NCBI RefSeq assembly: GCF_013350005.1
Contig: NZ_JABVWW010000024.1
Span: 1-40,210 of the forward strand
Source: Methylocystis silviterrae
GTDB lineage: Bacteria; Pseudomonadota; Alphaproteobacteria; Rhizobiales; Beijerinckiaceae
Reading direction: 5' to 3'
DNA: 40,210 bases
Part shown: in pieces, positions 3,076-22,794 of the stretch
How the letters are laid out: every line of letters starts with the position of its first letter
How positions within the stretch are numbered: position 1 is the stretch's first letter
Notes under the pieces: generated by a model
The model's database searches: none
What the model was told of the DNA's origin: nothing
What the model saw: only the letters and a program-made list of their open reading frames with translations
Position numbers and translations under genes: made by a program

Positions 3076-3084
3076 ATCGCCACC

Positions 3085-3375: not shown

Positions 3376-3692
3376 CAGCGTCCCCCCATCCCGCCGGTGA
3401 GTGACGTGACTACCTGCGCTGCCCCGAAGATCAGCGCGACGCCGATGACGACGGAGAACGCCCATCCCCACGGAATGCGCGATGTGAGCGCGAGATACCC
3501 GACCGCCGCGACGGCAACCGTTGCGGCTGTGGTAGCGAAGGTCCCCGTCATAAAATCGAGAACGCTCGACAGCGCGGTATTGAGCGGCTGAAAGGTTGCG
3601 GAGGAGGCTAGCGCCGGGTCGCTTGCCGCAAAAATCAAAATGCAGATAATCAAACTCGGCAACAGACAATCGCGCCTCCTCCAAAAGTTCAT
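3375..3692 (-). CDS. virB2: Type IV secretion pilin VirB2
   Basis: A 105-residue prepilin. A long basic N-terminus and hydrophobic core end in a signal-peptidase-like site (DPALASS, about residues 25-31). Two further hydrophobic segments follow, AATVAVAAVGYLALTSRIP and WAFSVVIGVALIFGAAQVV, as expected for the VirB2/TrbC pilin, and the chain ends in a short glycine-rich tail. The chosen ATG (3692) lies 8 bases after AGGGAGA and overlaps the virB1 stop as ATGA. The open frame could start 18 codons earlier inside virB1, but that would add a charged stretch before the signal peptide. VirB2 is processed and polymerised into the conjugative pilus. Confidence 0.9.
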   Translation of the reverse strand: MNFWRRRDCLLPSLIICILIFAASDPALASSATFQPLNTALSSVLDFMTGTFATTAATVAVAAVGYLALTSRIPWGWAFSVVIGVALIFGAAQVVTSLTGGMGGR

Positions 3693-4534
3693 TTCTGTTC
3701 TCCCTGATCGTCGCTGCTGACGTAAAGCACCGAACCGCCGATCCATTGCGGTCCTTTGGAATCAGCCTTTGGCTTCTCCGTAGTCTCTTGAACGGACGGC
3801 GCGTGAAATCTCGATTGCTTGGCCACGCCCCCGGGTTGCCGCGTCGAAGCCCCTTCAAGGCCGTAATACTTGTTGGTTGCGTTCGCGACGTAGCGCACCG
3901 TCTCCGCAATCGCGGGCACGCCGCGCGATTGGTAGACCCGCTCGGGCCCGGCGTTATAAGCTGCGGCGATGAGCATCAAATTCCCGCCAAATTGTGCGCT
4001 GAGGTCTCTCAGGAAGAGCATCGCTCCATGCACATTCTCGGCCGGATTGCATATGTCGTGAACGCCATATTGGGCCGCTGTGTCCGGCATCAGCTGCAGG
4101 GGGCCGCGCGCGCCCTTGCGTGAATTTAAGTCCGCTCCGTCATTGGATTCGAGCGAAAGAATCGTGAGGGCTAGTTTTCCATCGACGCCGACGCTTGTCG
4201 CCTCGCGCGCGACGAGATCGCGCAGGCTCGCGTCGTCCATCGCACTTTCACAGCGCTCAGGGAGAGCACCCTCGCCGGTCAGCGCCGCGTCGATCGACGG
4301 CTGACGCATCTTGGCGGGAGGCTGAGCGACGGGGATGTCCGATTGTGCCGCCGCGTCAACGGCGACGAGCCGCCCGAACCTCTCTGGCACAACTTTGGTC
4401 GGCGCATCCTGATGAACACCTTCAGCCCTCGCGATCACCGCGGTCGGCGCGCTTATGCGCGCGCCGTGCTCTTGTGCGTGGGCGTTTAGCGCTGGGAACA
4501 CGCAACACAGGGCAGGCAGCAAAAGTTTCCGCAT
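3689..4534 (-). CDS. virB1: VirB1-type lytic transglycosylase
   Basis: A 281-residue exported wall-cleaving enzyme, first gene of the minus-strand virB operon. The signal peptide is MRKLLLPALCCVFPALNAHA. The SLT (transglycosylase) domain covers about residues 103-225, with the catalytic glutamate in SLES (Glu129), then GPLQLMPDTA (145-154) and AAYNAGPERV (191-200). It opens peptidoglycan locally so the secretion channel can be built. The start at 4534 follows GGGAG by 7 bases; the open frame runs 43 codons further upstream without a signal peptide, so that longer form is unlikely. The C-terminal 50 residues are low-complexity and probably flexible. Confidence 0.92.
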   Translation of the reverse strand: MRKLLLPALCCVFPALNAHAQEHGARISAPTAVIARAEGVHQDAPTKVVPERFGRLVAVDAAAQSDIPVAQPPAKMRQPSIDAALTGEGALPERCESAMDDASLRDLVAREATSVGVDGKLALTILSLESNDGADLNSRKGARGPLQLMPDTAAQYGVHDICNPAENVHGAMLFLRDLSAQFGGNLMLIAAAYNAGPERVYQSRGVPAIAETVRYVANATNKYYGLEGASTRQPGGVAKQSRFHAPSVQETTEKPKADSKGPQWIGGSVLYVSSDDQGEQK

Positions 4535-4683
4535 GGCGAAACTCCCGTGGAGTCGCCCCTCCTGTAACGCGCATCTAATAAAATGGCAATCTCCAAAAAA
4601 GTGCGCTATTAGGCTTTCGAGGCGCGTCATTGCGGCGGGCGCTTTCGTGACCGCGCGCGACAACCAGTCAGGCGGGGCGTTTC
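4535..4683. promoter_or_regulatory. Divergent intergenic region between virB1 and a plus-strand membrane-protein gene
   Basis: About 150 bases separate two divergent transcription units, so promoters for both the virB operon and the plus-strand exported-protein cluster should lie here. The segment around 4570-4610 is distinctly A/T-rich compared with its surroundings (ATCTAATAAAATGGCAATC, then a run of six A). I do not see a convincing -35/-10 pair and give no exact promoter. Confidence 0.4.
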
Positions 4684-5016
4684 ATGTCGAATAGCGAACC
4701 AAACAACCATTATTACGAGCCTGCCGTTCGGTCGTTAGGCCTCATTGAAGGTGCTATCATTGTGATGACCGTCGGCGCGATGGCGGTGGTGCAGTGGCTG
4801 GACGAGCAGCCCTTGCAGGTTTTTGGCTGGTTCCTCTTTCCGATCGAATTTCTGTTGAACGCTGTATTTTTTCCCGGGACGGAAACGCGCGTGCGAAAGA
4901 ATGGCGCCGCGTTGCTTGAAGCTCTCCCGATTTTCTTGCTGAGCTACGTTCTGTATCGCTTTGCAAAAGGGGCGATTTCCGTTCTGCGCCTTATCCTGCC
5001 GAAGCGCCCGCAATGA
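4684..5016 (+). CDS. Small membrane protein of unknown function
   Basis: A 110-residue protein with hydrophobic segments at about residues 18-38, 44-64 and 77-97 and a basic C-terminus (LPKRPQ). It is therefore probably an inner-membrane protein with three helices. Not recognised as a named family. It is the first gene of the plus-strand cluster divergent from virB1. Its stop overlaps the next start as ATGA, so the two are likely co-translated. Placement beside a VirB operon and ahead of several exported proteins suggests a role in surface exclusion or transfer, but that is inference from position only. Confidence 0.7.
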   Translation: MSNSEPNNHYYEPAVRSLGLIEGAIIVMTVGAMAVVQWLDEQPLQVFGWFLFPIEFLLNAVFFPGTETRVRKNGAALLEALPIFLLSYVLYRFAKGAISVLRLILPKRPQ

Positions 5017-5630
5017 ATTGTTGGGAGCTTTTGCGCGCCAAGAGCGCCGCGATCCTTCTTGTTGGCTGTTACTCCGCCGTTGCAATCGCGCAGACCTACA
5101 CGGCGGACCCGGGAACTTGGCGCCCCGTCGCCTATTCGGACCTTACGTTCCCGCGCGGCGAAGCCGAATCATTCGCGTCGCTTTGGCAGGACAGGCTCGA
5201 TGAGAGCAACAGGAAGTCGGCGCCCATCGATCCTGGTGGGCTCAATATGAGCATCGCTGTTGGCAATCGCGGCGCCAGCGAGTGGCACTTCTCGATCAAT
5301 TTCCAGACGAAACTCGTCGCCTTCAGCGTGCTCAGCACGCCCTACCTGTGCACCGACGAGTATCCGTCGCCAACACAAGGTATCCGAATCAAGGTTTGCC
5401 CGTCGCGTCTCGCGACGTTTGAAAACAACAGCTACAGCGCCATCGACGGCGCCGCATGCTTTGTCGAGAAGACGCCTGGCGCGCCGGCTGAGGACTCGAC
5501 CGCGACCGTCACTTATGCCGCTTACGATGTTCCGACGCGCACGATCCGCCTGCGCTACACTGTGTCGCATCAAGAGATCGACCGCTGCGCTCAATCCGTG
5601 CCACTTCACCCGGAGAATGCGGTGCGGTAG
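5013..5630 (+). CDS. Exported protein of unknown function
   Basis: A 205-residue protein with a basic N-terminus, a hydrophobic stretch (SAAILLVGCYSAVAIA) and a likely cleavage site before QTYTADPG, so it is probably periplasmic or secreted. The mature chain is rich in beta-favouring residues and has four cysteines (around residues 113, 124, 149 and 192) that could form disulfides. No family recognised. It is coupled by ATGA overlap to the small membrane protein upstream. Confidence 0.7.
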   Translation: MNCWELLRAKSAAILLVGCYSAVAIAQTYTADPGTWRPVAYSDLTFPRGEAESFASLWQDRLDESNRKSAPIDPGGLNMSIAVGNRGASEWHFSINFQTKLVAFSVLSTPYLCTDEYPSPTQGIRIKVCPSRLATFENNSYSAIDGAACFVEKTPGAPAEDSTATVTYAAYDVPTRTIRLRYTVSHQEIDRCAQSVPLHPENAVR

Positions 5631-5863
5631 CGCGCCGTCAGCGGCTGATGAAAAGGAGCCACGCCATGCAGCACATCACCCTTCCCTCGCGATCAAGGCC
5701 GACCATGCGGATGATAGCGCGAGCGGGCGGCTATGAGCGTCAATCACAAAATCCGTCTCCACAAGCGGACCCTCGGATTTTCTGTCGGCGCTTTGCGCCT
5801 TTGACGCCGCCGCGCGGTCCCGCCGTATCCATGGCATTGACTGGCAATGTGAAGGAGGTCGTC
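5631..5863 (+). other. Spacer with no assignable gene
   Basis: This 233-base stretch separates two exported-protein genes. An AAGGAG ribosome-binding-like sequence sits just before an ATG at 5666, and that frame is continuous with the downstream gene. The encoded leader is Arg/Pro-rich, lacks a signal peptide and would bury the real signal sequence at codon 73, so it is unlikely to be translated as part of that gene. It might be the remnant of a small lost gene. Confidence 0.4.
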
Positions 5864-6403
5864 ATGAGCGCTGCAACCGTCATCGCGCTTCTCATTCCGT
5901 TCACCGCCGGCGCCGCACAAGCTGAATCACATCGCCTTATCGCTCAGGAATTTTCGCTTGTCGGCGCCGGCGACTTGCAAAGCGTCATTTGGGCCGACAA
6001 GCTGCCGCAGCTTCAAGCGAGCCGCAACGCCCTGCAGCGGGCGGCTCCGAGCGCTCACCTAAAATCGATCGCGCAAGTCTGGACGGCGACTTTCTCGGGA
6101 AACGGTCGCTCCTATGTCGTATCTGCGATCAATGACGGCTGCGAATCGAGCTCCGCGGCTGAGAACGCCTTGATTTGCCCGGTCCGCATCGCCGAAGTTG
6201 TCGGTGGAAAGGTGCAGGTTGTCGCCGATACGACGCTGCCGATTTCGTCGGTACGCGGCAATGCCGGCTACGACGCGTCATCCAATGCAAATTCGCAATA
6301 CATGACCATCGCGTCGTTCGACCCCGTGTCGCGCGCAATTTCTTTCACCGACGTTTCCGCCGGTCAGAAGACCGCGCTTTCCGTTCGCGTCAATCTCCGA
6401 TAG
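5864..6403 (+). CDS. Exported protein of unknown function
   Basis: A 179-residue protein beginning MSAATVIALLIPFTAGAAQA, a signal peptide. The start follows an excellent ribosome binding site (GAAGGAGGT, 3-5 bases upstream), which decides it over the longer open frame from 5648. The mature part has two cysteines (DGCESSS and ALICPVR) and a repeating hydrophobic beta-like pattern. It is not recognised as a known family. It lies in a run of five exported or membrane proteins next to the VirB operon, so a role at the cell surface during transfer is plausible but unproven. Confidence 0.72.
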   Translation: MSAATVIALLIPFTAGAAQAESHRLIAQEFSLVGAGDLQSVIWADKLPQLQASRNALQRAAPSAHLKSIAQVWTATFSGNGRSYVVSAINDGCESSSAAENALICPVRIAEVVGGKVQVVADTTLPISSVRGNAGYDASSNANSQYMTIASFDPVSRAISFTDVSAGQKTALSVRVNLR

Positions 6404-6426
6404 CCGTTTCCCGCAAGAGGCCCGAA

Positions 6427-7191
6427 ATGCGACGCCACTCATTCACAATCGCAGCGTTGCTTACCACGGCGGGCGGCTCGCCGGTCGAGGCGTTTTTCGC
6501 GGCGGGCTGCACCAATCAGCATTATTCCGCGTCCGACGTCGCCACTGCAATCCAAAACTGCGACAGCGCCAGTGACACACTGAAAAGCAACGCATGCAAT
6601 TTTGGCGGAGCGGCGATGGCCGAGTCTGGGGGCAATACCTGCGAGTCGAATGGCAACAACTTTGGCGTCCTTCAGCTTACACGCGGGAATCTTCCGCAAG
6701 GCATGACGTCCGATGAATATCTGCGCCTCCCGATGCAACAGCAGGTGTGCACCTGGGCGCAGCAGGTCGGCAATTCCAATACACGCGGCGGCTACACGAC
6801 GCTCGCCAACAATCGCAATATCGACGGAACGCCCGTCACATCAGGTATGTTGATGGCCTGCTTCCAGTTCGGTCAGCTGATCTGCAAAAGCGACATCGCA
6901 TTCATGCAGTCACACGGCGGGGCTTGCCCAACCGCAGGCAATGGCGGCGTGCGGGCAACAAATGCGACTCTCGCGAACGGGTCCGCCAACCTCGACGGAA
7001 ATAACCAGTCGATATGCTCCTGGGGTGGCGCGATCCAGAGCAAGATCAACCAAGCAGCCGCCACCTGCAAACCGGGTAATGGCGGAAACAATGGTGGCAC
7101 TGAGTGCCCCGGCAACGGCACGACGCCGAACGGCGTCATTCCGCCGACGCCGGGCAATGCGCCCGTGCAACTTCCCCCAAATCTGGCTTGA
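6427..7191 (+). CDS. Exported lysozyme-like protein, putative second lytic transglycosylase
   Basis: A 254-residue protein with an N-terminal hydrophobic signal region (FTIAALLTTAGG). Around residues 60-90 it reads AMAESGGNTCE, then NNFGVLQLTRGN. This resembles the lysozyme/SLT pattern of a catalytic glutamate followed by a glycine-rich FGxxQL loop. Multiple cysteines imply an oxidised periplasmic location, and the C-terminus is a Gly/Asn/Pro-rich linker. If active it would cleave peptidoglycan, giving this region two such enzymes (the other is VirB1). The start at 6427 is chosen because it begins the signal sequence and lies 9 bases after AAGAGG. The family call is inferred from the motif and is moderate. 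Confidence 0.65.
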   Translation: MRRHSFTIAALLTTAGGSPVEAFFAAGCTNQHYSASDVATAIQNCDSASDTLKSNACNFGGAAMAESGGNTCESNGNNFGVLQLTRGNLPQGMTSDEYLRLPMQQQVCTWAQQVGNSNTRGGYTTLANNRNIDGTPVTSGMLMACFQFGQLICKSDIAFMQSHGGACPTAGNGGVRATNATLANGSANLDGNNQSICSWGGAIQSKINQAAATCKPGNGGNNGGTECPGNGTTPNGVIPPTPGNAPVQLPPNLA

Positions 7192-7199
7192 TTAAAGTC

Positions 7200-7763
7200 A
7201 TGCGCACCGTAGTACGACTCGCCCTCGTCATCGCATCGACGGCGCTCCCCGCGGTCGGCAGTGCACAGACGCAGACTCCGCCTGCGCTCCCCGTGTTTGA
7301 CTTTCCGCAGTCCGGCGTCACCTTTCAGACGGGAGACAGCTGGTCCACGAACGGACAGGCTTTCCGCCTCTATGGCGTTCAAAGCTGCATTCGGGGGACG
7401 TTTTTCACGAACTCAGCCAAGGTCCGCACCGATTGCGGGGAGGTATCGCTCGCCTATCTCGCTGCGGTCGTTCGCGACGCGACGCCTCGATGCACTGCTA
7501 TTGCGCAGGCTGGCGCGCCACCAGTCATCTTCTCGGTTTGCGCCGTTCATATCGGGAGCAACACACTCGACCTCGGAACCGTGCTTATTACGCAGGGCTT
7601 CGCGTTCGCGGCGACTGACGCCGCCGGCAAGCCGACGAAATTTGAATACGGCGTCGCCGAGAGTGAGGCGTCGAAAGCAAAGCGCGGCCTTTGGGCTGCG
7701 GCCGACCTTCCCCACCCGTCGAAGATCCTCATCGAAGCGGCGCGCGGCGCTCGACCGCGATAG
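7200..7763 (+). CDS. Exported thermonuclease-fold (SNase-like) protein
   Basis: A 187-residue protein with signal peptide MRTVVRLALVIASTALPAVG. The mature part follows the staphylococcal-nuclease fold: FRLYGVQSC, DCGEVSLAYL, a beta strand ending FSVCAV, LDLGTVLITQGFAFA, and a final EASKAKRGLW. In active thermonucleases the first motif continues as GIDxPE and the third strand carries a catalytic arginine; here these positions read VQSC and VIFSV. Phosphodiesterase activity may therefore be lost, leaving a binding role. Four cysteines could form disulfides. Related proteins are often found in plasmid transfer regions. The start at 7200 is chosen over 7104 because of the signal peptide. Confidence 0.8.
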   Translation: MRTVVRLALVIASTALPAVGSAQTQTPPALPVFDFPQSGVTFQTGDSWSTNGQAFRLYGVQSCIRGTFFTNSAKVRTDCGEVSLAYLAAVVRDATPRCTAIAQAGAPPVIFSVCAVHIGSNTLDLGTVLITQGFAFAATDAAGKPTKFEYGVAESEASKAKRGLWAAADLPHPSKILIEAARGARPR

Positions 7764-7765
7764 CG

Positions 7766-8674
7766 ATGCTGGCAAGCGCCCATGCCGTCGCTCAGCTCCT
7801 GGGCGGGCGACGCGAGGGACGTGGCTATCTCTGCCATTGTCCGGTCAAGACTCATGGAAAGCAACGCGGCGATCGACGGCCCTCGCTCAGCGTCAACGAC
7901 GGCGACAAGGGCGTGATCCTGCATTGCTTCGCCGGCTGTGATCCGCGCGATGTTATCGCCTCCATCAACGCCGTTGACCCGAACGCGCGCGCCGAAATCA
8001 CAGATCGACCGCCGCTCAACGACAAGCCGGCGCCGAAAACCACGAGCGTCTATGCGCGCCGAATCTGGCAATCGGCGGTGCCCGTTAAGGGGACGATTGC
8101 CGAGGGCTTCTTAGCGGAGCGCGGTCTACCGACCACGCCGCCGGCGTCAATCCGCTTCCTGCCCTCCTATCGTTACGACAAAGAGCGGCCGCGAAGCGCC
8201 CTGCCCTGTCTTGTCGCCGCCGCCCAGGCGCCGTCGCGCGAAATCGTTGGCGTTCAACTCACCTTGCTGCATCCGCGCGGCCGGCGCAAAGCCGACGTTG
8301 AATTTCCGCGGCGCACGATCGGCCCGCTTGGCGCGTCTATGCTCCGCCTCGCACCGGTCACTCCCTCCCTTGGGATCGCCGAAGGTTTCGAGAAGGCATG
8401 GGCCGCGCAATTGCTATTCAGCGAGCCTGTATGGGCGACGCTTGGCGCCGATCGTTTCGGCGTCGTCAATTGGCCCAGCGACGTGACGAGGCTCACGATC
8501 TATGCCGACAACGATGGACCTGGCCTAAAGGCCGCACGTGAATTTCGCGCCGCGCATCCTGAAATTGGGGTTCGCATCCGCTTTTGCGCCGCCGAGGGGC
8601 AGGACTTTGACAAGCTTTACAAGACCGTCTCTGGGGATCACGGCGAAGCCTTGAAACGCATCATCGAGGAATGA
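7766..8674 (+). CDS. Zinc-finger and Toprim primase-like protein (DUF7146 type)
   Basis: A 302-residue protein related to phage and plasmid primases. The N-terminal zinc-binding region has C23, C25, H30 and then C54 and C58 (HCFAGC), in the pattern seen in CHC2 and P4-type primase fingers. The C-terminal Toprim domain has the glutamate in GIAEGFE (Glu206) and the DxD-like metal site ADNDG (248-250). Such proteins prime DNA synthesis, for example on the transferred single strand; no separate polymerase domain is visible. It starts 2 bases after the thermonuclease-like gene. A paralogue lies at 21649-22653. Confidence 0.82.
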   Translation: MLASAHAVAQLLGGRREGRGYLCHCPVKTHGKQRGDRRPSLSVNDGDKGVILHCFAGCDPRDVIASINAVDPNARAEITDRPPLNDKPAPKTTSVYARRIWQSAVPVKGTIAEGFLAERGLPTTPPASIRFLPSYRYDKERPRSALPCLVAAAQAPSREIVGVQLTLLHPRGRRKADVEFPRRTIGPLGASMLRLAPVTPSLGIAEGFEKAWAAQLLFSEPVWATLGADRFGVVNWPSDVTRLTIYADNDGPGLKAAREFRAAHPEIGVRIRFCAAEGQDFDKLYKTVSGDHGEALKRIIEE

Positions 8675-8925
8675 ACCGCTGCTTGGCGCCAAGTCCGGAC
8701 ATTGCTGAGGGGCCGTGTCTTTCCGGGTTCGACCCGAAAAACCTCGTACATCGAGGCTGACGACGGACTGAGGGGAGCCAATGCAGACGATTCCGATCGA
8801 ATCACAATGTACGCGCGAATTGCTGTGGAGAATGTCGCCGCCGGTTCCTTCGGCGGCGCTACCAAGTGACGGATTGACCAAAATGCGTGACAATCAGATG
8901 TTCCGGAGTTTCGAACCGCACGGGG

Positions 8926-10389
8926 GTGCGATTGTTCACGATTCTACATATTTCTGATTTGCATCGATCGCGTGAAGAACCTGTCGATAATGATTCCTTG
9001 ATTGCCGCGCTACTTGGCGACGGCGATCGCTACCTCGGGGAAATGCCGCCGGTCCCGCGGCCCGGTGCAATCGTGGTCAGCGGCGACCTAGTCCAAGGCG
9101 TCCCAATTGGCGCGAATGGATGGCAGGACTCGATGCGCGACCAGTATCGGGTCGTCGCCGCATTTCTCGAGCAATTGGCAATTCGGTTTCTGGAGGGCGA
9201 TCGGAGCAAGCTTATCATCGTTCCGGGTAACCATGATGTCTGTTGGAACACCTCTTTTGCCGCAATGGAACGCGTCCCAGAGGATCAGTGGCCGACGGAT
9301 GTCCGCCGGGCCCTGGTCGAACCGGACAGCAACTATCGATGGTCGTGGCGTGAGCGGGCTTTGTACCGTGTCCATGATCACAACGCATATGCCATGCGAA
9401 TGGGATTCTACTGGGACTTGGTCGAGAACTTTTACGAGGGCGTATCCCTTGCCGCTGGCATCGATCGAAACCGCGGCTACCAACTCTTTGAATTGCTTGA
9501 TCGCAGCATCATCGTCGCCGCGTTCGATTCGATTCATCGCAACGATTGCTTCAGTTATTCTGGCGCGATACCACGTGGTGCCATCGCCCGATGCAATCTT
9601 CACCTGCGTGACCGCCCGCATCGCTACGGTCTTCGGATTGCCGTCTGGCACCACAGCTTCCAAGGCCCTCCCCAAAGAGAAGACTATATGGAGGCGGGCC
9701 AAGTTCGGGAGATGGTCGGCTTGGGATTTCAGCTGGGCATCCACGGCCACCAGCATGTTGCGGAGGCGACTACCCAGTACATTTATCTTAATGAGACCCA
9801 GTCTATGGGTGTAGCGTCGGCTGGTTCGCTATGCGCCGGGGCGCGGGAACTGCCGCGTGGTGTGAACCGCCAGTACAACCTGATCGTGATCGACGATACG
9901 TTGCGTAGTGCAAGGGTCCATGTTCGCGAAATGACCGATGGCGAGCAGTTTAGCGGCAAACGAAACGGTGCGTTTTTGCAAGGGTTTTCGGAACTGACTT
10001 GGCAGGCGGCGACAGACGTTGCGGGCCGCCCCATCGACGCCGCCGAAACAAATGATCGAGCTTGCGTCATTCGGGCAGAAGAAGCTCTGCGGGCCGGCCG
10101 CTTGCGGGATGCCATTGAATCATTGCGCGATGTCAAACTCACTCCTGGTTCTTATCAGCGTAAGCTTGCCATTGATGCGTTTCGGCGAGCCGAAGATTGG
10201 AAGAGCCTGAGCGACGCGATCGGATCGCCCGAGAACGTCGAGGAAACGGTCCTCCTCATCACCGCCTTAGTTAATCGTGACCAATTCGAAGGAGCCGTGT
10301 CGACGCTTGATGAAGCAACCGACCTGGACCCGGCCACACGCCAAGCACTTCGAGACAAGATAGCCGTAAAACAAGCTATGAGGCGCTGA
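8926..10389 (+). CDS. Calcineurin-like metallophosphoesterase paired with a GHKL ATPase
   Basis: A roughly 487-residue metallophosphoesterase with all family motifs in order: DLH in HISDLH, GD in VVSGDLV, GNHD in VPGNHDVCW, a histidine in VWHHSFQG, and GHQH. All metal ligands are present, so it should be an active nuclease or phosphodiesterase of the Mre11/calcineurin class. The last 120 residues are helical and repeat-like. The start is uncertain: GTG at 8887 (500 residues), GTG at 8926 or TTG at 8932 (after GGGGG); conserved sequence begins at about 8926. The stop overlaps the next start (TGATG). Codon use is less GC-biased than in flanking genes, suggesting acquisition as a unit. Confidence 0.85.
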   Translation: MRLFTILHISDLHRSREEPVDNDSLIAALLGDGDRYLGEMPPVPRPGAIVVSGDLVQGVPIGANGWQDSMRDQYRVVAAFLEQLAIRFLEGDRSKLIIVPGNHDVCWNTSFAAMERVPEDQWPTDVRRALVEPDSNYRWSWRERALYRVHDHNAYAMRMGFYWDLVENFYEGVSLAAGIDRNRGYQLFELLDRSIIVAAFDSIHRNDCFSYSGAIPRGAIARCNLHLRDRPHRYGLRIAVWHHSFQGPPQREDYMEAGQVREMVGLGFQLGIHGHQHVAEATTQYIYLNETQSMGVASAGSLCAGARELPRGVNRQYNLIVIDDTLRSARVHVREMTDGEQFSGKRNGAFLQGFSELTWQAATDVAGRPIDAAETNDRACVIRAEEALRAGRLRDAIESLRDVKLTPGSYQRKLAIDAFRRAEDWKSLSDAIGSPENVEETVLLITALVNRDQFEGAVSTLDEATDLDPATRQALRDKIAVKQAMRR

Positions 10390-12704
10390 TGACCACTGAA
10401 CTAATCCCATTTCAGATCGAGGCGCAGCGCGTTATCCAGCTGTTGGCCAAGCAGATTTACCAGTCACCCCTAGCCCTACTGCGCGAGAACACGCAAAACG
10501 CCTTTGACGCAGTTCGCCAAAGGATCGCTTCCGACGCTGAGTTCACGCCACGCATTGATATCCAGTTGGCGCCGGATCGGGTGACAATTTTCGACAACGG
10601 AATTGGCATGACGCCGGGTGACCTCAAGCAGCACTACTGGACGGCAGGAAGCAGCAGCAAGAACAACGAAGCAGCGCGGGCGGCAGGCGTTGTCGGTACG
10701 TTTGGCATCGGCGCAATGGCCAATTTCGGCATCGCAGATGCACTCACCGTTGAGACTGAAAGCGCCATCACGGGTGAGCGGACGATCTGCCGGGCTGAGA
10801 AGGCCAAGTTGTCGCTGAAAGAAGACTGCATCGAACGCGAGGTTGTCGCAACGAACGGCCAGCCTGGGACAACAATCATCGCTCACATTGCAACGGGCTC
10901 CCACATAAACGTTCAGCAGGCGCGGAACTACATTGCGGAGTTTGTCTCGCTGGTGGCGGTTCCTGTTTATGTCAACGGTGAGCTGGTAAGCCAGAGGTCT
11001 GTCGATGAGGCAGTGCCTGTCGTTCCTGAGGCTTGGCGCCTGAACCGCAAATCTGAAAAGCTCGGGGACAGGCTGACCGCCGATTTGGAGCTTGTTCTCT
11101 CCAATAACGCGGACATCTGGATCAAACTGACCGAGATTATTTGGGCCCAGAAACAAATCCCCGGACGTATTGTCTTGCGCACTGGTCAGTCGACGTTGCG
11201 TACGTTTCGAAGTGGCTTCGGCCTGGCAACAGCTTCAGTTAGCTCGGCCTATCAGTTTGGCGGTGTCGTTGATCTTCTCTTGCTCGAACCCACGGCAGGG
11301 CGCGAAGCAATAACTGTCGACGGAATGCAGTTCCTGCAATCGATGATGACAGAAATAGATGCCTTTGTGTCGCGGTATCTGTCCGAAAGGGACGAGGCGG
11401 ACGTCAGCACCCCGTTTATGAACTGGATAATAGCGCACAACCGCTACGATCTCTGTGGCCATCTCCGGATGACAGTTGTTCCTGGCGACAGGATCGGACT
11501 CCTAGAAGTGAGTGAGCGCTCAAAAAAAGCCCCCATGATGCTCTACGAAGGGGCCGACCAAGGGATGATCAATATGCACGCCAGTGAGGATTCTCCGCTG
11601 CTCGTTCTTGCACGCAATAACCCTCGGCGACGCTGTGAGCAGAATTACCTTCGCTCGCACGCGAAGGTGACGCTGATTTCGGATCATCCGGTCGTCAAGG
11701 AACGCCGTCGGCTCAGTGAGTTGACCATGGCCGAGAGCGGATTGGCGTTTCGTATTCAGACCATATTGGAGTCCGACTATTTTCTTACATGCGATGTCGA
11801 CTTCGGGACAATCAGCCATGGTCTTCCCGTCTTGGTAGAGAAGCGGCATGAGCGGGTCAGGGTCACGCTGAATCCAGATGGTCAAACGGTGAAGCTGCTT
11901 CTTGGTCTTTACGATACCGAGTTCACTGCGTTCCAAAGCATGGCCAAGGATTTTGTGCGTAACGTCATCTTCCCCCGCGTGGCCGACTATGTTCCCAGCA
12001 GCACGCGCCAAGGTGCGGAGGCGTTTCTGAAGGCGATCCGGCGCCCCCGCGAAATGTTTGAGTACGCCGATGACGATCTTGGCAGTCTTCCGACCATCTG
12101 GGATGACTACAACGAAGGGAAGATTTCGCTCGACCAGGCTGTGGAGCGGTCGCGAACAGCAGTGCGGTCCAGCATCCAAGTGGTCGATCACGCTGCGAGT
12201 GCGCGTGACGTTGTCCCAGATGTGATCCAGAATGAACAATTTCTGCAGAATGCCGCGACCGAAGTAGCCCTCGATCTAGAACCTGCGCCTGCTATCACCA
12301 GGCAGGAGGTCGCAACGTCGGCCAAGCTGCTCGTTATCGATGACAATGAACCGGCCTTACGCGGATATCGCTGCTTCTTGGCCATCACGGACAAGGCGCG
12401 AGAGGAAATGGGAGAGTTTTTCTTGCAGCCTCATCGCACGTCGGTCGTCTGGGGCGGACAGAAGACCTTGTTTATTTTTCTGCACCATTCGGGGCAGTTC
12501 GGTCTGTATTATGATCTTCAAACCCGAGAGCCCGTGGAAGCTCCCGCAGGAGGCGGGTCATTTCCGACTGCCACGATCGTTCTAAAGGATCGATTGTTCA
12601 TTCCGATTCCGGATGCAATTCGGGCGAGCTTCATTCCAACACAAGGCGAACGTAAACGATTTGAGGTCAGGGCGGACATCCTGCGGACTGATAGTTCCGA
12701 CTAG
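10389..12704 (+). CDS. GHKL (Hsp90-like) ATPase, partner of the upstream phosphoesterase
   Basis: A 771-residue protein whose first 170 residues form a complete GHKL ATP-binding fold: N-box glutamate and asparagine in LRENTQNAFDA (Glu33, Asn37, Asp40), DNGIGM at 69-74, GTFGIGAM at 103-110 and a distal GTT at about 160. Overall order resembles Hsp90/HtpG, with an ATPase, a middle domain (about 200-400), then a long C-terminal part that does not resemble Hsp90. A separate C-terminal module starts near KLLVIDDNEPALRGYR and is rich in beta strands. It overlaps the upstream gene by one base, so the products are probably made together. Function is unknown to me; an ATP-gated sensor controlling the phosphoesterase is the simplest model. 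Confidence 0.85.
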   Translation: MTTELIPFQIEAQRVIQLLAKQIYQSPLALLRENTQNAFDAVRQRIASDAEFTPRIDIQLAPDRVTIFDNGIGMTPGDLKQHYWTAGSSSKNNEAARAAGVVGTFGIGAMANFGIADALTVETESAITGERTICRAEKAKLSLKEDCIEREVVATNGQPGTTIIAHIATGSHINVQQARNYIAEFVSLVAVPVYVNGELVSQRSVDEAVPVVPEAWRLNRKSEKLGDRLTADLELVLSNNADIWIKLTEIIWAQKQIPGRIVLRTGQSTLRTFRSGFGLATASVSSAYQFGGVVDLLLLEPTAGREAITVDGMQFLQSMMTEIDAFVSRYLSERDEADVSTPFMNWIIAHNRYDLCGHLRMTVVPGDRIGLLEVSERSKKAPMMLYEGADQGMINMHASEDSPLLVLARNNPRRRCEQNYLRSHAKVTLISDHPVVKERRRLSELTMAESGLAFRIQTILESDYFLTCDVDFGTISHGLPVLVEKRHERVRVTLNPDGQTVKLLLGLYDTEFTAFQSMAKDFVRNVIFPRVADYVPSSTRQGAEAFLKAIRRPREMFEYADDDLGSLPTIWDDYNEGKISLDQAVERSRTAVRSSIQVVDHAASARDVVPDVIQNEQFLQNAATEVALDLEPAPAITRQEVATSAKLLVIDDNEPALRGYRCFLAITDKAREEMGEFFLQPHRTSVVWGGQKTLFIFLHHSGQFGLYYDLQTREPVEAPAGGGSFPTATIVLKDRLFIPIPDAIRASFIPTQGERKRFEVRADILRTDSSD

Positions 12705-12997
12705 AGCCGGTCTTAGCGTCAAGATCCTCCGATTGTTCGCCACTGTCGCGAATGACACCATAGCTTCGGAATGCTGTTCGAGGCCAAGACGAAAATTACA
12801 CCGCGACGTGGTTGGGATCAGTGGCGTCGGCGCTGTAGTTGCGTCTGACAGTTTGAGGCCAAGTGCGAAGCTCTAATTGACCGCGTGTCGCCCATGGTGG
12901 CGGCCTTGGGGCCCGACGGGGAATTTCCGCAAATAGTCATTTTGTTACCTTCCTCAGGTAACGAAAAACGAGGAAACTGTCCTTCTGCGTTCTTTCC
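12705..12997. other. Intergenic region with one perfect inverted repeat
   Basis: No gene is visible in these 293 bases between two convergent genes. A perfect 7-base inverted repeat, GTTACCT-TCCTC-AGGTAAC, lies at 12944-12962. The nonamer TTCCTCAGG occurs within it (12950-12958) and again at 12994-13002. The hairpin has no T-run on either side, so it is a poor terminator; a protein-binding site is as likely. Confidence 0.5.
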
Positions 12998-13642
12998 TCA
13001 GGCTCCTCGTTGAGATGGAAGCCGCGCAACTCGCGAAGTTTTTGGGGTCGCCGCGCGTTTGGCGCCGCTCGCCGCTTTGCGTGGCGACTCGACGCCGAGC
13101 AATTCCCACAAGCTGATGTTCAATCGTTCCGCGAGTTCGACCAGCACGAGCAGCGATGGGTTCGATACGCCATCGGTGATGAGGTAGAGCTGCGGCAGGG
13201 AAACGTTCAGAAATTTCGCGAATTCCTGTTTGGTCAGGCCGCTTTTACGGAAGCGCTCGTTCACGACGGTGCCGATCGTCTCGACCATTTTCGGCCCGGA
13301 GGGATTCTTGCGGTCGCGAACCGGCTTGGCTTCAAGCAACTCGTAGAGCGGGACGCGAAGCTTTTTCGAGATTTCCGCCAACATTGTGATGGACGGGTTG
13401 CCGAGCCGCCGACGCACATAGCGAAACTGCGAGCCGGACATGCCGACGAATTCGGCGAATTCCGGCTTCGACAAGCCGCTCTTCGACTGTTCGGCGATCA
13501 GTCGATTCGCAAGGTTTGCGAGATAGGGCGACTCAAGCCGATCAGCGATCGTGACGACCATGAGCCGGCGTCGTCGATCCGCCTCAGCCGTACCCCCCGC
13601 ATTATCCGCCTTACGTGACCGCTTTGGCCCGCCGCCTATCAT
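12998..13642 (-). CDS. Tandem helix-turn-helix (XRE-like) regulator
   Basis: A 214-residue protein with two similar helix-turn-helix modules. The first, at about residues 44-104, contains SGLSKPEFAEFVGMSGSQF; the second, at about 128-186, contains SGLTKQEFAKFLNVSLPQL. Both end in a conserved L(Y/W)ELL. The internal duplication suggests one chain can bind a symmetric operator or two half-sites. The C-terminal tail is Lys/Arg/Ala-rich. The start at 13642 follows GGGG by 6 bases; an alternative methionine at 13561 would drop a basic leader. It is divergent from the gene at 13944, so it may regulate that unit or itself. No ligand domain is seen. Confidence 0.8.
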   Translation of the reverse strand: MIGGGPKRSRKADNAGGTAEADRRRRLMVVTIADRLESPYLANLANRLIAEQSKSGLSKPEFAEFVGMSGSQFRYVRRRLGNPSITMLAEISKKLRVPLYELLEAKPVRDRKNPSGPKMVETIGTVVNERFRKSGLTKQEFAKFLNVSLPQLYLITDGVSNPSLLVLVELAERLNISLWELLGVESPRKAASGAKRAATPKTSRVARLPSQRGA

Positions 13643-13884
13643 CTTGCCCCGGAAAAGTCACGACACCGCCCCCGCACTGTCATAGATTCTCGCGCGACTG
13701 CCAAGGGCAATCCGGGAATTTTTGCCAGTTTATTAGACTTGGCCTGCTTGGCGTCGCGTCGCTGCGCGCCCAAAGCAAGGCTATGGCTCGTCAAGCGACC
13801 AAGGCGAGCGAGACGGCCGCCCCCAGTCGCGGACCGGGCTTTTCGCTGCTGTTTTTGCGAAGAGCGAGAGCGGTGAGCACGTTT
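13643..13884. other. Intergenic region between divergent genes
   Basis: About 240 bases upstream of both the HTH gene (minus) and the leader hairpin of the plus-strand gene. An A/T-richer patch at about 13715-13740 (TTTTTGCCAGTTTATTAG) is the likeliest place for promoters. A 110-codon frame crosses it, but its composition is not gene-like. I cannot fix a promoter. Confidence 0.35.
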
Positions 13885-13931
13885 CACGACGGGATGGAAA
13901 GCGAGAGAGAGGCTCCCGCGCGCCCGTCGTG
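13885..13931 (+). promoter_or_regulatory. Structured 5' leader, copy A
   Basis: A 9-base perfect stem (CACGACGGG at 13885-13893 with CCCGTCGTG at 13923-13931) encloses 29 bases containing GAGAGAGAGGCTC, which can form a shorter inner stem with one mismatch. The outer stem's 3' arm touches the GGAGG ribosome binding site (13931-13935) of the ATG at 13944. The same architecture recurs at 14338-14380 with a compensatory change. It could be an RNA control element or a DNA-binding site. Confidence 0.55.
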
Positions 13932-13943
13932 GAGGTTTCGCGC

Positions 13944-14627
13944 ATGACCAACAACTACGGCGAGACGATCGCCAAGGCCCTCGCCATTGACGGCGGGCAT
14001 CTCTTCATCGGAAGAGGCGGGTTTTCATTGCATTACGAGAGCGGCTGGTTGAGCGGTTATGACTGCGAGCCGGTCAAAGCTGCGGCGGTCGCGGCCGGCT
14101 TGCCCGTGATCGATAGCCGCATGGTCGATTTCGGCAAAGTCGCGGACCTCGCGCTTCTCGGTCCGATGATCGCGGTCGGCAAGCTAGCCGATCCGCCGCC
14201 CTGGCACGCGCTGTCCTATGCGCCGCTCGCCGCGGTCGCCAAAGCTTACGCGCGCGCGGGCGCCGAGGTGCGGAACGTGTCCGGGTGCGGCGGCAGTGAG
14301 GTGGCAGCCCGAGAGCGAGAGAGCCCTTTGGGCTTTTCGACGGAGCAGAGGGTGAGAGAGAGGCTCTCGCCCATCCGTCGCGGAGTTCAGGGACATGTCA
14401 AAGATTGTTTTGACGGCGGCGCGGGATATCGCGCTCGACAAGCTCGTAGCGTCGGACGCGAATGTGCGCCGGATCAAGGCGGGGGTGAGCGTCGAGGATC
14501 TGGCCGAGGATATTTCGTGGCGGGGATTGTTGCAGTCCTTGAGCGTGCGGCCTGTCGTGGACGACCAGGGCGCGGAAACGGGTCAATTCGCGGTCAGCGC
14601 GGGCGGGCGACGTCTCGTGGCGCTTAA
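13944..14627 (+). CDS. Conserved-looking small protein of unknown function, 3' end doubtful
   Basis: The ATG at 13944 follows GGAGG by 8 bases, so translation begins here. The first 115 or so residues (MTNNYGETIAKALAIDGGHL onward, with GKVADLALLGPMIAVGKLA and PPPWHALSYAPLAAVAKAY) look like a real, mostly hydrophobic folded protein. From about 14290 the frame runs without a stop through leader B and 233 bases into the ParB-like gene in another frame. There it becomes Arg/Gly-rich and is clearly not authentic. A TGA in another frame at 14297-14299 suggests that a small frameshift removed the normal stop. I do not recognise the family. Confidence 0.5.
   Translation: MTNNYGETIAKALAIDGGHLFIGRGGFSLHYESGWLSGYDCEPVKAAAVAAGLPVIDSRMVDFGKVADLALLGPMIAVGKLADPPPWHALSYAPLAAVAKAYARAGAEVRNVSGCGGSEVAARERESPLGFSTEQRVRERLSPIRRGVQGHVKDCFDGGAGYRARQARSVGRECAPDQGGGERRGSGRGYFVAGIVAVLERAACRGRPGRGNGSIRGQRGRATSRGA
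14338..14380 (+). promoter_or_regulatory. Structured 5' leader, copy B
   Basis: The outer stem is CGACGGA (14338-14344) with TCCGTCG (14374-14380). The inner stem is GGTGAGAG (14351-14358) with CTCTCGCC (14364-14371). The enclosed length is 29 bases, as in copy A, and GAGAGAGAGGCTC is shared. Relative to copy A the innermost outer-stem pair changes from G-C to A-T on both sides. A GGAG ribosome binding site follows at 14382-14385, 9 bases before the ATG at 14395. AGCCCTTTGGGCTTTT just upstream (14323-14337) is terminator-like, so attenuation is possible. Confidence 0.55.
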
Positions 14628-16458
14628 ACTGCTCGTCAAGCAGAAGCGCCTCGCGAAAAACGCGCCCGTTCCGTGCATCGTGAAAACCGACGGGATCGAG
14701 GAGGAGGATTCGCTCGCCGAGAACACAATGCGCGAGGCGCTGCATCCGCTCGATCAGTTTCGGGCGTTCAAGAGTCTGCAGGATCAGGGCGTCACGATTG
14801 AAGAGATCGCCGCGCGGTTTTTCGTCGGCGCGCCGGTGGTGCGACAGAGACTGAAACTCGCAGCGGCGAGCCAGAAGCTGCTCGACCTTTACGTCGCCGA
14901 AGAATTGAGCCTCGAGCAACTCATGGCCTTTTGCGTCACCGACGACCATGCGCGGCAGGAGGAAGTTTGGAAGACTCTCAACCGTTCTTACATCAAGGAG
15001 CCCTACACGATCCGGCGTCTGCTGACCGAAGGCGCGGTGAAGGCGGGCGACAAGCGCGCGGTCTTCGTCGGCGTTGAAGCCTATGAGGCGGCGGGCGGGG
15101 TCATCCTTCGCGATCTCTTCCAGCAGGATCATGGCGGCTGGCTGCAGGATATGGCGCTGCTTGATCGCCTTGCGCGGGAAAAACTCGCGGAAGCGGCCGA
15201 CGCGCTGCGCGCCGAAGGCTGGAAGTGGTCGGAGATCGCGATCGATTTTCCCTATGGCCACTCGAATGGGCTGCGGCGGCTGCCGGCAAGCTACGCGCCG
15301 ATCTCGGAGGAGCAGCAGGCGCGTTACGACGCCGCGCTCGCCGAATATGACGCTTTGTCGGACGAACACGAGAGCGAAGAAGATCTTCCCGAGGAGGTCG
15401 ACCGCAAGCTCGCGGAACTCGAAAAGGAGATTGCGGCGGTTGACGAGCGACCGGCCATCTACGATCCGACCGAAATCTCGCGCGCCGGAATATTCGTCAG
15501 CATCGACTATGACGGCGCCCTCAAGGTCGAGCGCGGCTTTGTTCGCCCCGAGGATGAGGAGCCCGCAGGTGCGCCCGCTGGCGGCGAATCCACGGGATCG
15601 GGGGGCGCTGCAAAGCGCGTTGGCGACGTCGCAGTCGGCAGTCCCGATGGAGACGCGGCCGACCATGACGAGACGGAAGTCTCGTCAAAACTGTCCGACC
15701 GATTGATGAGCGAACTTACCGCCCATCGCACGCTCGCGCTGCGCGTCGCGCTCGCCAATGAGCCGGAGGCGGCGTTTCTCGCGGCGACCCACGCGCTGGC
15801 GCTGATGAGTTTTTACTCTTCCGGCCGCTTCGACGGCTGCATCGAGATCGACGCCAAATCCGTCCCCCTCGGTCCCTATGCCTCCGGCCTCGCCGATCTC
15901 GCCACTGCGCGGGCGAATGATGAAGCGCTGGGGCATTGGCAATTGCGACTGCCAAAGAAATCGGACGATCTTTGGGACTGGCTGGTGAAAGCGGACCGCG
16001 AATCGACGGCCGGACTTTTCGCCTTCTGCGTCGGCCAGAGCGTCAACGCGCTGCAGCTTCCGCACGAACGCCGCTCAAAGGCGCTGGATCATGCCGATCG
16101 ACTGGCCGAACATGTCGGGCTCGATATGAGCGCGCATTGGACGCCGACTGTTGAGAGCTATTTCGGCAAGGTGACCAAGGCGCGGATTCTAGCGGCGGTG
16201 CGCGAGGCCAAGGGCGAAGCGACCGCGCAGATGATCGACCATCTGAAAAAATCCGACATGGCGGTCGAGGCCCAGCGTCTGCTCCAGGGAACAGGCTGGT
16301 TGCCCGAGCCGCTTCGCGGCTCGACAACGGATGATGCTGACGCGGCAATCGTCCAAAAGCAAGAAAGCGATGCCTTGCCGGATTTCCTGGGCGATGACGA
16401 AGACGCGGCTTTGCTCGACGCCGAGGAAGAGGAGCCGCGCGCCACAGCCGCGGAATGA
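14395..16458 (+). CDS. ParB/RepB/Spo0J-family DNA-binding protein
   Basis: A 687-residue protein with a ParB N-terminal domain at about residues 10-110: NVRR, the AGGRRLVALKLL box, and SLAENTMREALHPLDQFRAF, which matches the ENxxRxxLxPxxxxxAF helix. An HTH follows (EEIAARFFVGAPVVRQRLKLA, about 140-160). It is twice the length of true partition ParB, with a long acidic middle (EEDLPEEVDRKLAELEKEIA) and a helical C-terminal half. This plasmid-backbone type is distinct from RepB at 31944. It may bind or process DNA, or regulate plasmid genes; no ParA partner is adjacent. A hairpin leader precedes it and a strong hairpin follows. Confidence 0.85.
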   Translation: MSKIVLTAARDIALDKLVASDANVRRIKAGVSVEDLAEDISWRGLLQSLSVRPVVDDQGAETGQFAVSAGGRRLVALKLLVKQKRLAKNAPVPCIVKTDGIEEEDSLAENTMREALHPLDQFRAFKSLQDQGVTIEEIAARFFVGAPVVRQRLKLAAASQKLLDLYVAEELSLEQLMAFCVTDDHARQEEVWKTLNRSYIKEPYTIRRLLTEGAVKAGDKRAVFVGVEAYEAAGGVILRDLFQQDHGGWLQDMALLDRLAREKLAEAADALRAEGWKWSEIAIDFPYGHSNGLRRLPASYAPISEEQQARYDAALAEYDALSDEHESEEDLPEEVDRKLAELEKEIAAVDERPAIYDPTEISRAGIFVSIDYDGALKVERGFVRPEDEEPAGAPAGGESTGSGGAAKRVGDVAVGSPDGDAADHDETEVSSKLSDRLMSELTAHRTLALRVALANEPEAAFLAATHALALMSFYSSGRFDGCIEIDAKSVPLGPYASGLADLATARANDEALGHWQLRLPKKSDDLWDWLVKADRESTAGLFAFCVGQSVNALQLPHERRSKALDHADRLAEHVGLDMSAHWTPTVESYFGKVTKARILAAVREAKGEATAQMIDHLKKSDMAVEAQRLLQGTGWLPEPLRGSTTDDADAAIVQKQESDALPDFLGDDEDAALLDAEEEEPRATAAE

Positions 16459-16466
16459 TGCTCAGC

Positions 16467-16495
16467 GGCGGGATGGCGCGCGCCGTCCCGCCTTT
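16467..16495 (+). terminator. Probable rho-independent terminator after the ParB-like gene
   Basis: Arms GGCGGGATGGCG (16467-16478) and CGCCGTCCCGCC (16481-16492) pair over 12 bases with a single T-G wobble, followed by TTTC. The stem begins 9 bases after the ParB-like stop. The T-run is short, so termination may be partial. Confidence 0.6.
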
Positions 16496-16633
16496 CGCCG
16501 CATCTGCCGCGTCGACGCTGACGTTTCGTCGCCCGCTCAAGAAGCGCATTCGTCACTCGCTGAATCTCTGTCTCCCGACACCGTCGCGCGTCCTGAACGC
16601 GCGCATCTTCCCTCTGTTTTGAAAGGCGCCGCC

Positions 16634-17044
16634 ATGGGCTGGCTCTATATGCAATCGCTCGGCGGTCATGCAGGACCGCGTGACTATCTCGACGCGCAAT
16701 TCAGCTTCGAGAATGCGGAAGGCCGATCGAAGATCCTGTGCTCAAAGCTCCTTGGCGACACGTACTACGCCGCCCTCGAGCAGCAGCGCAGCGACGGCGC
16801 ACGTGAGGTCTTCGCGCTTGTCTGCCTCACCTACTACAACCCGCGTGATCCGGAAGGATTCATCTTCGGCTACAAAGATATGACCGAAGCTATGGGGCCC
16901 TGCGCGAGCGACTGCCCCGAGGACATTCTGGATCTGTTGACGCCGACGGATCGGCCTTACGCAATCGCCTGGCGCGCCCGCTGTCGCGAGAACGCCGTTG
17001 CGCGGCGCAGTAAGTCATCACAAAAATCGGCGTCGTCGTTCTGA
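16634..17044 (+). CDS. Small plasmid-backbone protein of unknown function (DUF6927-like)
   Basis: A 136-residue protein beginning MGWLYMQSLGGHAGPRDYL and containing REVFALVCLTYYNPRDPEG and FIFGYKDMTEAMGPCASDC. From memory this matches a family of unknown function (DUF6927-like) common on Rhizobiales plasmids; I cannot check it here. The start at 16634 follows AAAGG by 8 bases. The upstream in-frame extension overlaps the ParB-like gene and crosses the terminator, so it is rejected. It lies between the ParB-like and helicase genes, suggesting a role in the same module. The C-terminus is basic and serine-rich. Confidence 0.75.
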   Translation: MGWLYMQSLGGHAGPRDYLDAQFSFENAEGRSKILCSKLLGDTYYAALEQQRSDGAREVFALVCLTYYNPRDPEGFIFGYKDMTEAMGPCASDCPEDILDLLTPTDRPYAIAWRARCRENAVARRSKSSQKSASSF

Positions 17045-17131
17045 CGGATTGGCGGCGGCGGCGTCACGGCGCTGATCGTCGGCGCGACGGCGGGGGGAGA
17101 GAAGAGGAAAAGGGCTTGGCCGGGAGGGCGA

Positions 17132-17164
17132 GCCCGGGAGGAGCAAAGAGAGAGCGTCCCGGGC
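17132..17164 (+). promoter_or_regulatory. Hairpin leader upstream of the helicase gene
   Basis: A perfect 8-base inverted repeat, GCCCGGGA (17132-17139) and TCCCGGGC (17157-17164), encloses 17 bases containing AGAGAGAG. It resembles leaders A and B in having a GC-rich stem around a GAGAGAG core, followed by a GGAG ribosome binding site (17178-17181) and an ATG at 17189. The stem sequence and loop length differ, so common origin is uncertain. Confidence 0.4.
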
Positions 17165-17188
17165 CGGTCACAATCCCGGAGACAATCG

Positions 17189-21634: not shown

Positions 21635-21648
21635 TGCGGGAGGCGATG

Positions 21649-22653: not shown

Positions 22654-22794
22654 GTTCGAGGAAAGCAGACGCTCCTGGTGCGTGTCACCGAGGGCTTATT
22701 TGACCCGTAGTGGACCTTGGCGGGGTCCGCTTCCGCCATGTAAATCCGATCAATCCGGAAGGAGCGGAAGACGAAGTCTTCGGAGCGGCGATAC
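22654..22794. other. Convergent intergenic region
   Basis: These 141 bases lie between two convergent genes. They hold two small inverted repeats: GGACC/GGTCC near 22722-22738, and GAAGAC-GAA-GTCTTC at 22767-22781. Neither is followed by a T-run, so bidirectional termination is possible but weakly supported. Confidence 0.35.

Follow-up and report, generated by a model that had tools for sequence, protein, structure and literature searches.

Is the pair of overlapping genes that interrupts the backbone of a Methylocystis plasmid an anti-phage defence system, and if so, of what kind? The two genes lie on contig NZ_JABVWW010000024.1 of Methylocystis silviterrae, within a stretch of 40,210 nucleotides that was analyzed as a whole (the window). 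The first encodes a calcineurin-like metallophosphoesterase (MPE) and the second a GHKL-type ATPase that resembles Hsp90 (hereafter the ATPase). A first-pass annotation, made from the window alone, had proposed an undescribed two-gene defence system in which an ATPase gates a nuclease. Given the evidence described below, the pair is best read as a mobile two-gene anti-phage system in which a Hsp90-type clamp controls a phosphodiesterase effector, a reading to which we assign a probability of around 0.62. The genes are located as follows:

8926-10389, + strand: MPE gene, a calcineurin-like metallophosphoesterase with a TPR-like C-terminus (487 amino acids, counted from the GTG at 8926)
10389-12704, + strand: ATPase gene, Hsp90-like and of the GHKL type (771 amino acids; ATG at 10389, stop codon ending at 12704)

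Conservation of the pair as a unit

The two genes, both on the + strand, share a single base (TGATG at 10389), as had been reported before. Neither contains an internal stop and the motifs of both are complete, and we thus rejected the idea of a broken relic. Besides the GTG at 8926, the MPE may start from an upstream GTG at 8887, which yields a longer protein, or from a TTG at 8932, the position at which the homologues begin and just 5' of which a G-rich stretch is found.

Loci with a full-length relative of the ATPase were collected from the genome collection (seven) and via plasmid, viral and whole-genome searches (seven more: L010, L011, L018-L021 and L049). An MPE gene was present directly upstream and on the same strand in all 14 relatives that were fetched (L003-L011, L018-L021, L049). 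In each of them the two genes overlap or are separated by no more than 10 bases. The relatives derive from Alphaproteobacteria, Cyanobacteria, a Deltaproteobacterium, Pseudomonas and viral contigs, and their identity to the window proteins goes down to 33% (ATPase) and 26% (MPE). The adjacency in distant replicons that the first-pass annotation had suggested looking for is present, across several phyla and on viral contigs. The junction was compared at 13 loci including the window, and consisted of a 4-base overlap at nine, a 1-base overlap at two, no overlap or gap at one (0 bases) and a 10-base gap at one. Moreover, the MPE and ATPase distances over 13 loci were strongly correlated (r = 0.954, as high in 0 of 10000 permutations), and the correlation persisted within the two clades (r = 0.816 and 0.841; 4 and 37 of 10000 permutations, respectively). 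Searching the plasmid collection with the MPE instead of the ATPase recovered five records, and in all four good matches the ATPase adjoined the MPE. The fifth match, a weak one (26%) on Nostoc p057_H (L052, 3391-9455), is a distant metallophosphoesterase within a long protein that adjoins NACHT genes and is reminiscent of DS-8 (see below). The MPE of Rhizobium sp. 007 (L011) is one open frame (6532-7992), in a place where the plasmid record annotates hypothetical genes.

The catalytic residues are conserved as well. The MPE carries the complete motif set (D11, H13, D54, N102, H103, H242, H243, H275 and H277), and within an alignment of 84 rows D54, N102, H103, H242, H243 and H275 are invariant, with a Tyr for H277 in one row and a gap at D11 in three and at H13 in two. 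The ATPase motifs (E33/N37, DNGIGM at 69-74 and GTFGIG at 103-108) are complete as well; over 83 rows E33, N37, D40, D69, G71, G73, M74 and the GTFG-G loop do not vary, I107 is retained in 82 (I107V in one), and P301 to R305 are invariant. That every catalytic motif is kept in both proteins had been noted from the start, and given the invariance in 83 to 84 rows both enzymes have probably been kept active. The strict pairing, the co-divergence and the active sites in both indicate that the MPE and the ATPase work together.

The pair stands out from its surroundings in composition and has a scattered distribution. The G+C content at third codon positions is 0.609 (MPE) and 0.635 (ATPase), against 0.675-0.825 in 14 other open reading frames of the window that we selected, which agrees with the weaker G/C bias described initially. 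Within the genus, 2 of 39 genomes contained the ATPase; it was recovered from 2 of 397 genomes in an order sample and 1 of 385 in a class sample (all at an E-value of 1e-80), and from 1 of 398 in a phylum sample (1e-40), with the window's genome included in every count. The counts from the three sampled searches (order, class and phylum) are lower bounds, since no more than two first-look candidates were scored in each genome. Identity of the window ATPase is 76% with that of a Deltaproteobacterial metagenome-assembled genome and 73% with a cyanobacterial one, whereas the ATPase encoded by another genome of the genus shares just 36% with it. This patchy presence, in combination with the high cross-phylum and low within-genus identity, indicates that the pair has spread by horizontal transfer. 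Two of the contigs that carry it are phage-like, one with a terminase, a late activator and Mu Gam (L021) and the other with a portal and a head maturation protease (L019). At the same time, the MPE found no match in 50,697 phage records at an E-value of 1e-5, and a common phage gene was therefore rejected. The search of E. coli genomes with the DNA of the Pseudomonas pair gave no match.

The presence on plasmids and phage-like contigs, the tight overlap and the chaperone-type partner would also fit a toxin-antitoxin-like or plasmid-stabilizing module, in which the MPE is a toxin that is restrained by its partner and freed upon loss of the plasmid or the clamp, the more so as toxin-antitoxin and defence functions overlap. 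However, in many toxin-antitoxin operons the antitoxin gene comes first, whereas here it is the enzyme gene. In addition, both genes are large, the ATPase is better conserved than the MPE (76 vs 57% for L003) and some of the homologues reside on contigs of at least one megabase. We consider such a module highly improbable.

The plasmid slot and its cargo

The segment that harbours the pair is flanked by backbone genes:

8677-12985, no strand: inserted segment, without match in the nearest sister, Methylocystis rosea BRCS1 plasmid 2 (L013), between primase and HTH regulator
7691-8674, + strand: primase-like gene (DUF7146/Toprim) of the backbone, bordering the slot on the left (Pfam DUF7146 3e-26, Toprim_3 4.4e-10)
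12998-13642, - strand: regulator of the backbone with a double HTH, bordering the slot on the right (HTH_3 in two stretches, E-value 1.3e-11)

The window has a Methylocystis-type plasmid backbone and over 8.3 kb shares 94% identity with M. rosea plasmid NZ_CP044330. In a blastn comparison with BRCS1 plasmid 2 the matches cover 1-8676 and 12986-22718, the break falling two bases past the stop codon of the primase gene, and the earlier claim that the pair interrupts a plasmid backbone is thereby corroborated. Against two other sisters blastn breaks at 8688/12936 (L014) and 8703/13056 (L015); these share 12 to 27 more bases past the first break, and the slot begins less than 30 bases from the primase stop. 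The pair thus occupies a 4.3-kb slot.

Nine Methylocystis plasmid records were found, of which seven were read; H45 and H49 were omitted, since they seem to duplicate the plasmids in L016 and L017 (same species and almost the same length). In L050 the slot is bounded by ParB only, as the primase border is unannotated, and the slots of L050 and L051 were taken from annotation and not from blastn. The slot region contained a defence system recognized by PADLOC in five of the seven sisters:

L017 (M. bryophila): Gabija (GajA 1.6e-256, GajB 2.2e-243)
L014 (pGW6_2): short Argonaute (pAgo) with a restriction endonuclease partner (7.2e-173 and 2.5e-175)
L016 (M. parvus): type I restriction-modification and a PD-T4-6-like kinase (1.6e-175 and 3.4e-40; HsdM and HsdS by annotation only)
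L051 (MJC1): DISARM (DrmA 2.6e-261, DrmD 2.2e-296, DrmB 1.3e-83)
L050 (BRCS1 plasmid 1): type IIG restriction-modification (1389 bits) and AbiEii (1.5e-123; AbiEi by annotation only)
L013 (BRCS1 plasmid 2): multiubiquitin/ThiF genes and a DEDDh exonuclease (match to a DRT-associated exonuclease, 3e-92), not counted as a known system
L015 (pGW6_1): match to a RecD-like helicase (1.2e-69) and a PLD-like protein without match, not counted as a known system

Between the DUF7146/Toprim primase-like gene and the HTH/ParB block, Methylocystis plasmids have a hotspot for defence cargo, and this cargo is different in each of the seven sisters and in the window.

The relatives of the pair were inspected for defence genes in their vicinity, although these scans were partial (a single protein each in L003 and L004, against Pfam alone, and no neighbour of L006 or L011). 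Clear defence genes were encountered near 4 of the 14 relatives:

L005 (Ensifer): type I restriction-modification genes beside the pair
L049: type I restriction-modification genes beside the pair (HsdS by annotation only)
L010 (Pseudomonas aeruginosa plasmid): LmuA (Lamassu partners by annotation only)
L018: Avs3a-like gene at 2153-5884, beside a transposase-like open reading frame and separated from the pair, here a divergent copy, by around 5 kb (matching model positions 5-596 of 2090)

The proteins tested near the pair in L007, L008, L009, L019, L020 and L021 did not reveal a clear defence system. Several matches were not scored as defence, namely 'RTasPolA' in L008, which is probably DNA polymerase I, a weak match to mad8 in L019, PDC-S54 in L049, a GHKL-type REase_II in L007 and nSTAND3, below cut-off, in L021. 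In L007 (1226-5837, - strand) genes similar to TniQ and TnsB and another small HATPase gene are found upstream of the pair, which suggests that this copy is carried on a transposon.

Some further features of the plasmid region were observed. HTH or regulator genes are annotated near the corresponding place in L013, L014 and L015, and the double HTH_3 protein of the window (12998-13642, - strand) may be a regulator or anchor of the slot. Cassettes of multiubiquitin/ThiF genes occur in the cargo region of both BRCS1 plasmids (L013, 17090-19548; L050, 18801-20959, the latter with an annotated E2-like gene). Upstream of the primase the window encodes a weakly SNase-like protein (7104-7763), and a thermonuclease is annotated at the corresponding place in several sisters.

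Domains and predicted folds of the two proteins

The two proteins can be divided as follows:

8926-10029, + strand: catalytic phosphodiesterase domain of the MPE (residues 1-368)
10033-10386, + strand: C-terminal helical repeats of the MPE, TPR-like (residues 370-487)
10389-11018, + strand: GHKL nucleotide-binding domain of the ATPase (residues 1-210, boundary approximate; hhalign to the HtpG-like protein L002 of the same genome, E-value 3.1e-12)
11019-11687, + strand: Hsp90-like middle domain (residues 211-433; invariant PTAGR at 301-305, candidate catalytic-arginine loop)
11688-12044, + strand: putative Hsp90 C-terminal (dimerization) domain (residues 434-552)
12045-12701, + strand: extra conserved C-terminal module (residues 553-771), without assigned relative

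The Pfam annotation of the MPE consists of Metallophos (E-value 1.7e-9) and a weak TPR; when the tail was scanned alone, TPR_14 was found at 1.8e-5 (25.4 bits against a cut-off of 23.5). The helical C-terminal extension noted earlier is visible in the predicted structure (pLDDT 91.4) as a TPR-like part with seven helices. The best fold matches of the model were YydB (9a6c), SMPDL3A and Rv0805, and acid sphingomyelinase was also among the fold neighbours. PPP phosphatases were absent from the 50 fold matches listed, although such an absence proves nothing on PPP membership. A viral fold library yielded only distant phosphoesterases (best E-value 7e-9), and a sequence search of the PDB gave only weak matches. 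Judged by the model, the fold of the MPE is closer to that of phosphodiesterases of the cyclic-nucleotide/sphingomyelinase type (SMPDL3A, Rv0805) than to that of Mre11, so that 'nuclease' becomes one option and is no longer the default.

This bears on the possibility that the MPE is a nuclease with a logic like that of Mre11/SbcD, which would cut the DNA or RNA of a phage or plasmid once the Hsp90-like clamp has enclosed nucleic acid or been loaded on it; protection would then be restriction-like and non-abortive. The combination of a metallophosphoesterase with an ATPase is indeed shared with SbcCD and Mre11-Rad50, but the partner there is an ABC-type ATPase (Rad50/SbcC) and here it is GHKL/Hsp90. 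On the basis of the predicted fold we rank the Mre11-type reading below the cyclic-nucleotide/sphingomyelinase-type one, and a nuclease of this kind seems unlikely.

The ATPase matches HATPase_c_3 in Pfam (E-value 9.7e-9), while the best NCBIfam model was that of the HSP90 family PRK14083 (1.6e-27, residues 7-206), below its cut-off. The scores remained far from the curated thresholds for full-length Hsp90 (57.9 against 371 bits for HtpG PRK05218 and 96.2 against 455 bits for PRK14083), and the protein is thus a relative of Hsp90 and not HtpG. Ordinary HtpG was also rejected because a different gene of the genome, on contig C11 (L002), is HtpG-like; it was termed so from alignment and protein size and not from a family library. 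The ATP site of the GHKL type (ExxxN, DxGxGM and GxxGxG) is present in the ATPase, and the N domain is followed by a middle domain, as in Hsp90. The match at the sequence level is limited to about the first 226 residues, but the predicted structure matches Hsp90 chains across residues 9-552. Full-length Hsp90 chains do extend to residue 552 of the model, albeit with an rmsd of about 8 Å. Beyond it, residues 553-771 have no Pfam match and no credible match in a PDB sequence search (best E-value 0.12), although 28 columns within about residues 568-771 are invariant in nine rows. The Hsp90-like N-terminal domain of the first-pass annotation thus stands, but the 'unfamiliar' C-terminal half shrinks to around residues 553-771.

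The presence of Hsp90, a metallophosphoesterase and TPR-like repeats amounts to the parts list of eukaryotic Hsp90-PP5. One could therefore think of a stress-responsive chaperone-phosphatase regulator without a role in immunity, which would dephosphorylate proteins or lipids, and the acid sphingomyelinase among the fold neighbours would also fit this. A housekeeping regulator would leave unexplained why the pair is rare and patchy, why it sits in a defence slot and why it occurs on phage-like contigs, and we regard this explanation as very improbable too.

Function and comparison with known systems

The slot, the patchy presence, the transfer and some of the neighbours point to a role in the conflict with mobile elements, and on the basis of these genomic associations it is very likely that the pair serves defence. 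The MPE and the ATPase likely form a physical complex, and that the latter controls the phosphodiesterase is probable, if somewhat less so. In the defence system that we favour, the Hsp90-like protein would be a dimeric clamp powered by ATP. It would detect infection or a phage protein, with its unique C-terminal module as the candidate sensor. The clamp would hold the phosphoesterase via the TPR-like tail of the MPE, and a switch in the ATP cycle would release or activate the metal-dependent phosphodiesterase. The latter may then destroy a nucleotide or nucleic acid that the phage needs and so block infection, probably with some cost to the cell.

Several observations weigh against this defence reading. 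The TPR signal of the MPE tail is weak: a single repeat exceeds its cut-off, and this only in a scan restricted to the tail. In L006, one of the relatives, the reading frame of the MPE is interrupted by a stop. The match of the window MPE to the DS9_1 profile (see below) is non-specific, as another metallophosphoesterase of the same genome (L054) scores about equally (9.2e-10 vs 1.9e-10). Finally, the scans, which covered only part of the neighbours, turned up no clear defence gene next to 10 of the 14 relatives, and the single neighbour tested for L003 and for L004 was an ordinary protein in each case. The co-occurrence with defence islands that had been named as support is present in part, in the slot that is shared with other systems and in four of the relatives. 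All in all, the pair is probably an undescribed two-gene defence system in view of the fixed unit, the defence slot and the lack of a counterpart in PADLOC and the literature, whereas the 'nuclease' component of the original proposal has lost its default status.

With respect to known systems, the PADLOC models (2023) did not match the pair as a system: the matches were weak and partial and concerned unrelated models, those of one system never matched both genes, and a known PADLOC system was therefore rejected. The pair was described nowhere in the literature that was searched, which comprised open-licence papers only and makes the absence a weak one, nor in the available parts of PMC13092281, PMC8195603, PMC12137116 and PMC12287305. 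The original impression that no named defence system has exactly this pair thus holds within these bounds. Compared with the Hsp90 family itself (HtpG, TRAP1, PRK14083), the ATPase has the GHKL motifs and the predicted N and M and perhaps C domains in common, but it adds a conserved C-terminal module of around 200 residues and resides in an operon with an MPE. YydB, one of the best fold matches of the MPE, belongs to the YydB-YydD pair of Bacillus subtilis (9a6c), of which we take YydD to be an ATPase of the ABC/RecN type and not Hsp90.

The closest parallels in terms of the effector are DS-8 and DS-9, found with DefensePredictor. According to the available text of PMC13092281, defence by both depends on residues of the metallophosphatase, with NACHT as the partner in DS-8 and HAD in DS-9, and such effectors were reported there as newly validated in 2026. 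The similarity lies in a metallophosphatase effector with a SMPDL3A-like fold, which in DS-8 is likewise coupled to an NTPase (NACHT), as far as described in that text; the difference is that the partner in our pair is Hsp90-like and neither NACHT nor HAD. All nine MPEs of the set A2 matched the NCBIfam profile DS9_1 (best 3e-16), but the window MPE (1.9e-10) reached only 39-40 bits against a curated cut-off of 420, and the second gene encodes a Hsp90-like protein and not a HAD phosphatase. DS-8 is a single metallophosphatase-NACHT protein, whereas here there are two proteins, without a NACHT match at an E-value of 0.1 and with 21.8 against 790 bits. Among eight other metallophosphoesterases of the same genome that were scanned, DS9_1 was matched by L054 (9.2e-10) and weakly by L055 (0.0062) and L056 (0.035), and L054 also matched DS8 (6.4e-5). 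Since L054 matches about as well, the profile was rejected as evidence of kinship with a validated anti-phage enzyme, and the comparison with the DS systems rests on fold and logic and not on membership.

GHKL domains have been linked to defence as well. VcSduA is a Shedu protein with a GHKL ATPase domain that functions in phage defence (PMC12137116), but it is a single protein with a PD-(D/E)xK nuclease, and the passage on it does not mention a Hsp90 middle domain. The model of the BbrUII/HgiDII GHKL restriction enzymes covered only residues 15-132 of the ATPase (39.5 against 550 bits).

The last parallel is eukaryotic Hsp90-PP5, which combines Hsp90, TPR and a metal-dependent phosphatase and of which a structure (8gae) was among those listed for the ATPase model. 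The TPR is N-terminal in PP5, whereas the TPR-like part of the MPE is C-terminal, and we found no evidence for a common descent of the two pairings. Hsp90 also has a role in NLR immunity. A bolder and more tentative idea, which we think somewhat doubtful, is that of a dedicated prokaryotic immune Hsp90: the whole clamp, of a type that is otherwise familiar as a general chaperone, would have been turned into a sensor that is driven by ATP and activates a single effector, namely a phosphodiesterase of the SMPDL3A/cyclic-nucleotide type with a TPR tail. Plasmids and phage-like elements would have carried this trio of Hsp90, TPR and metallophosphoesterase across phyla, and it would be a bacterial counterpart, by convergence or descent, of Hsp90-PP5 and of the role of Hsp90 in NLR immunity. 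If true, bacteria would possess a full Hsp90-type machine devoted to switching immunity, and yet another kind of ATPase would be paired with metallophosphoesterase effectors, so that the modular idea of 'one phosphodiesterase effector, many NTPase sensors' becomes directly testable and the gating of an enzyme by the Hsp90 cycle could be addressed in a simple two-gene system. The slot of the Methylocystis plasmids would be a ready source of more candidates. What is already known, as far as the consulted parts of the two papers go, is the kind of effector (PMC13092281) and the presence of GHKL in defence (PMC12137116); what appears to be new, judging by PADLOC and the open papers searched, is a full Hsp90-like protein as the fixed partner of a TPR-tailed phosphodiesterase.

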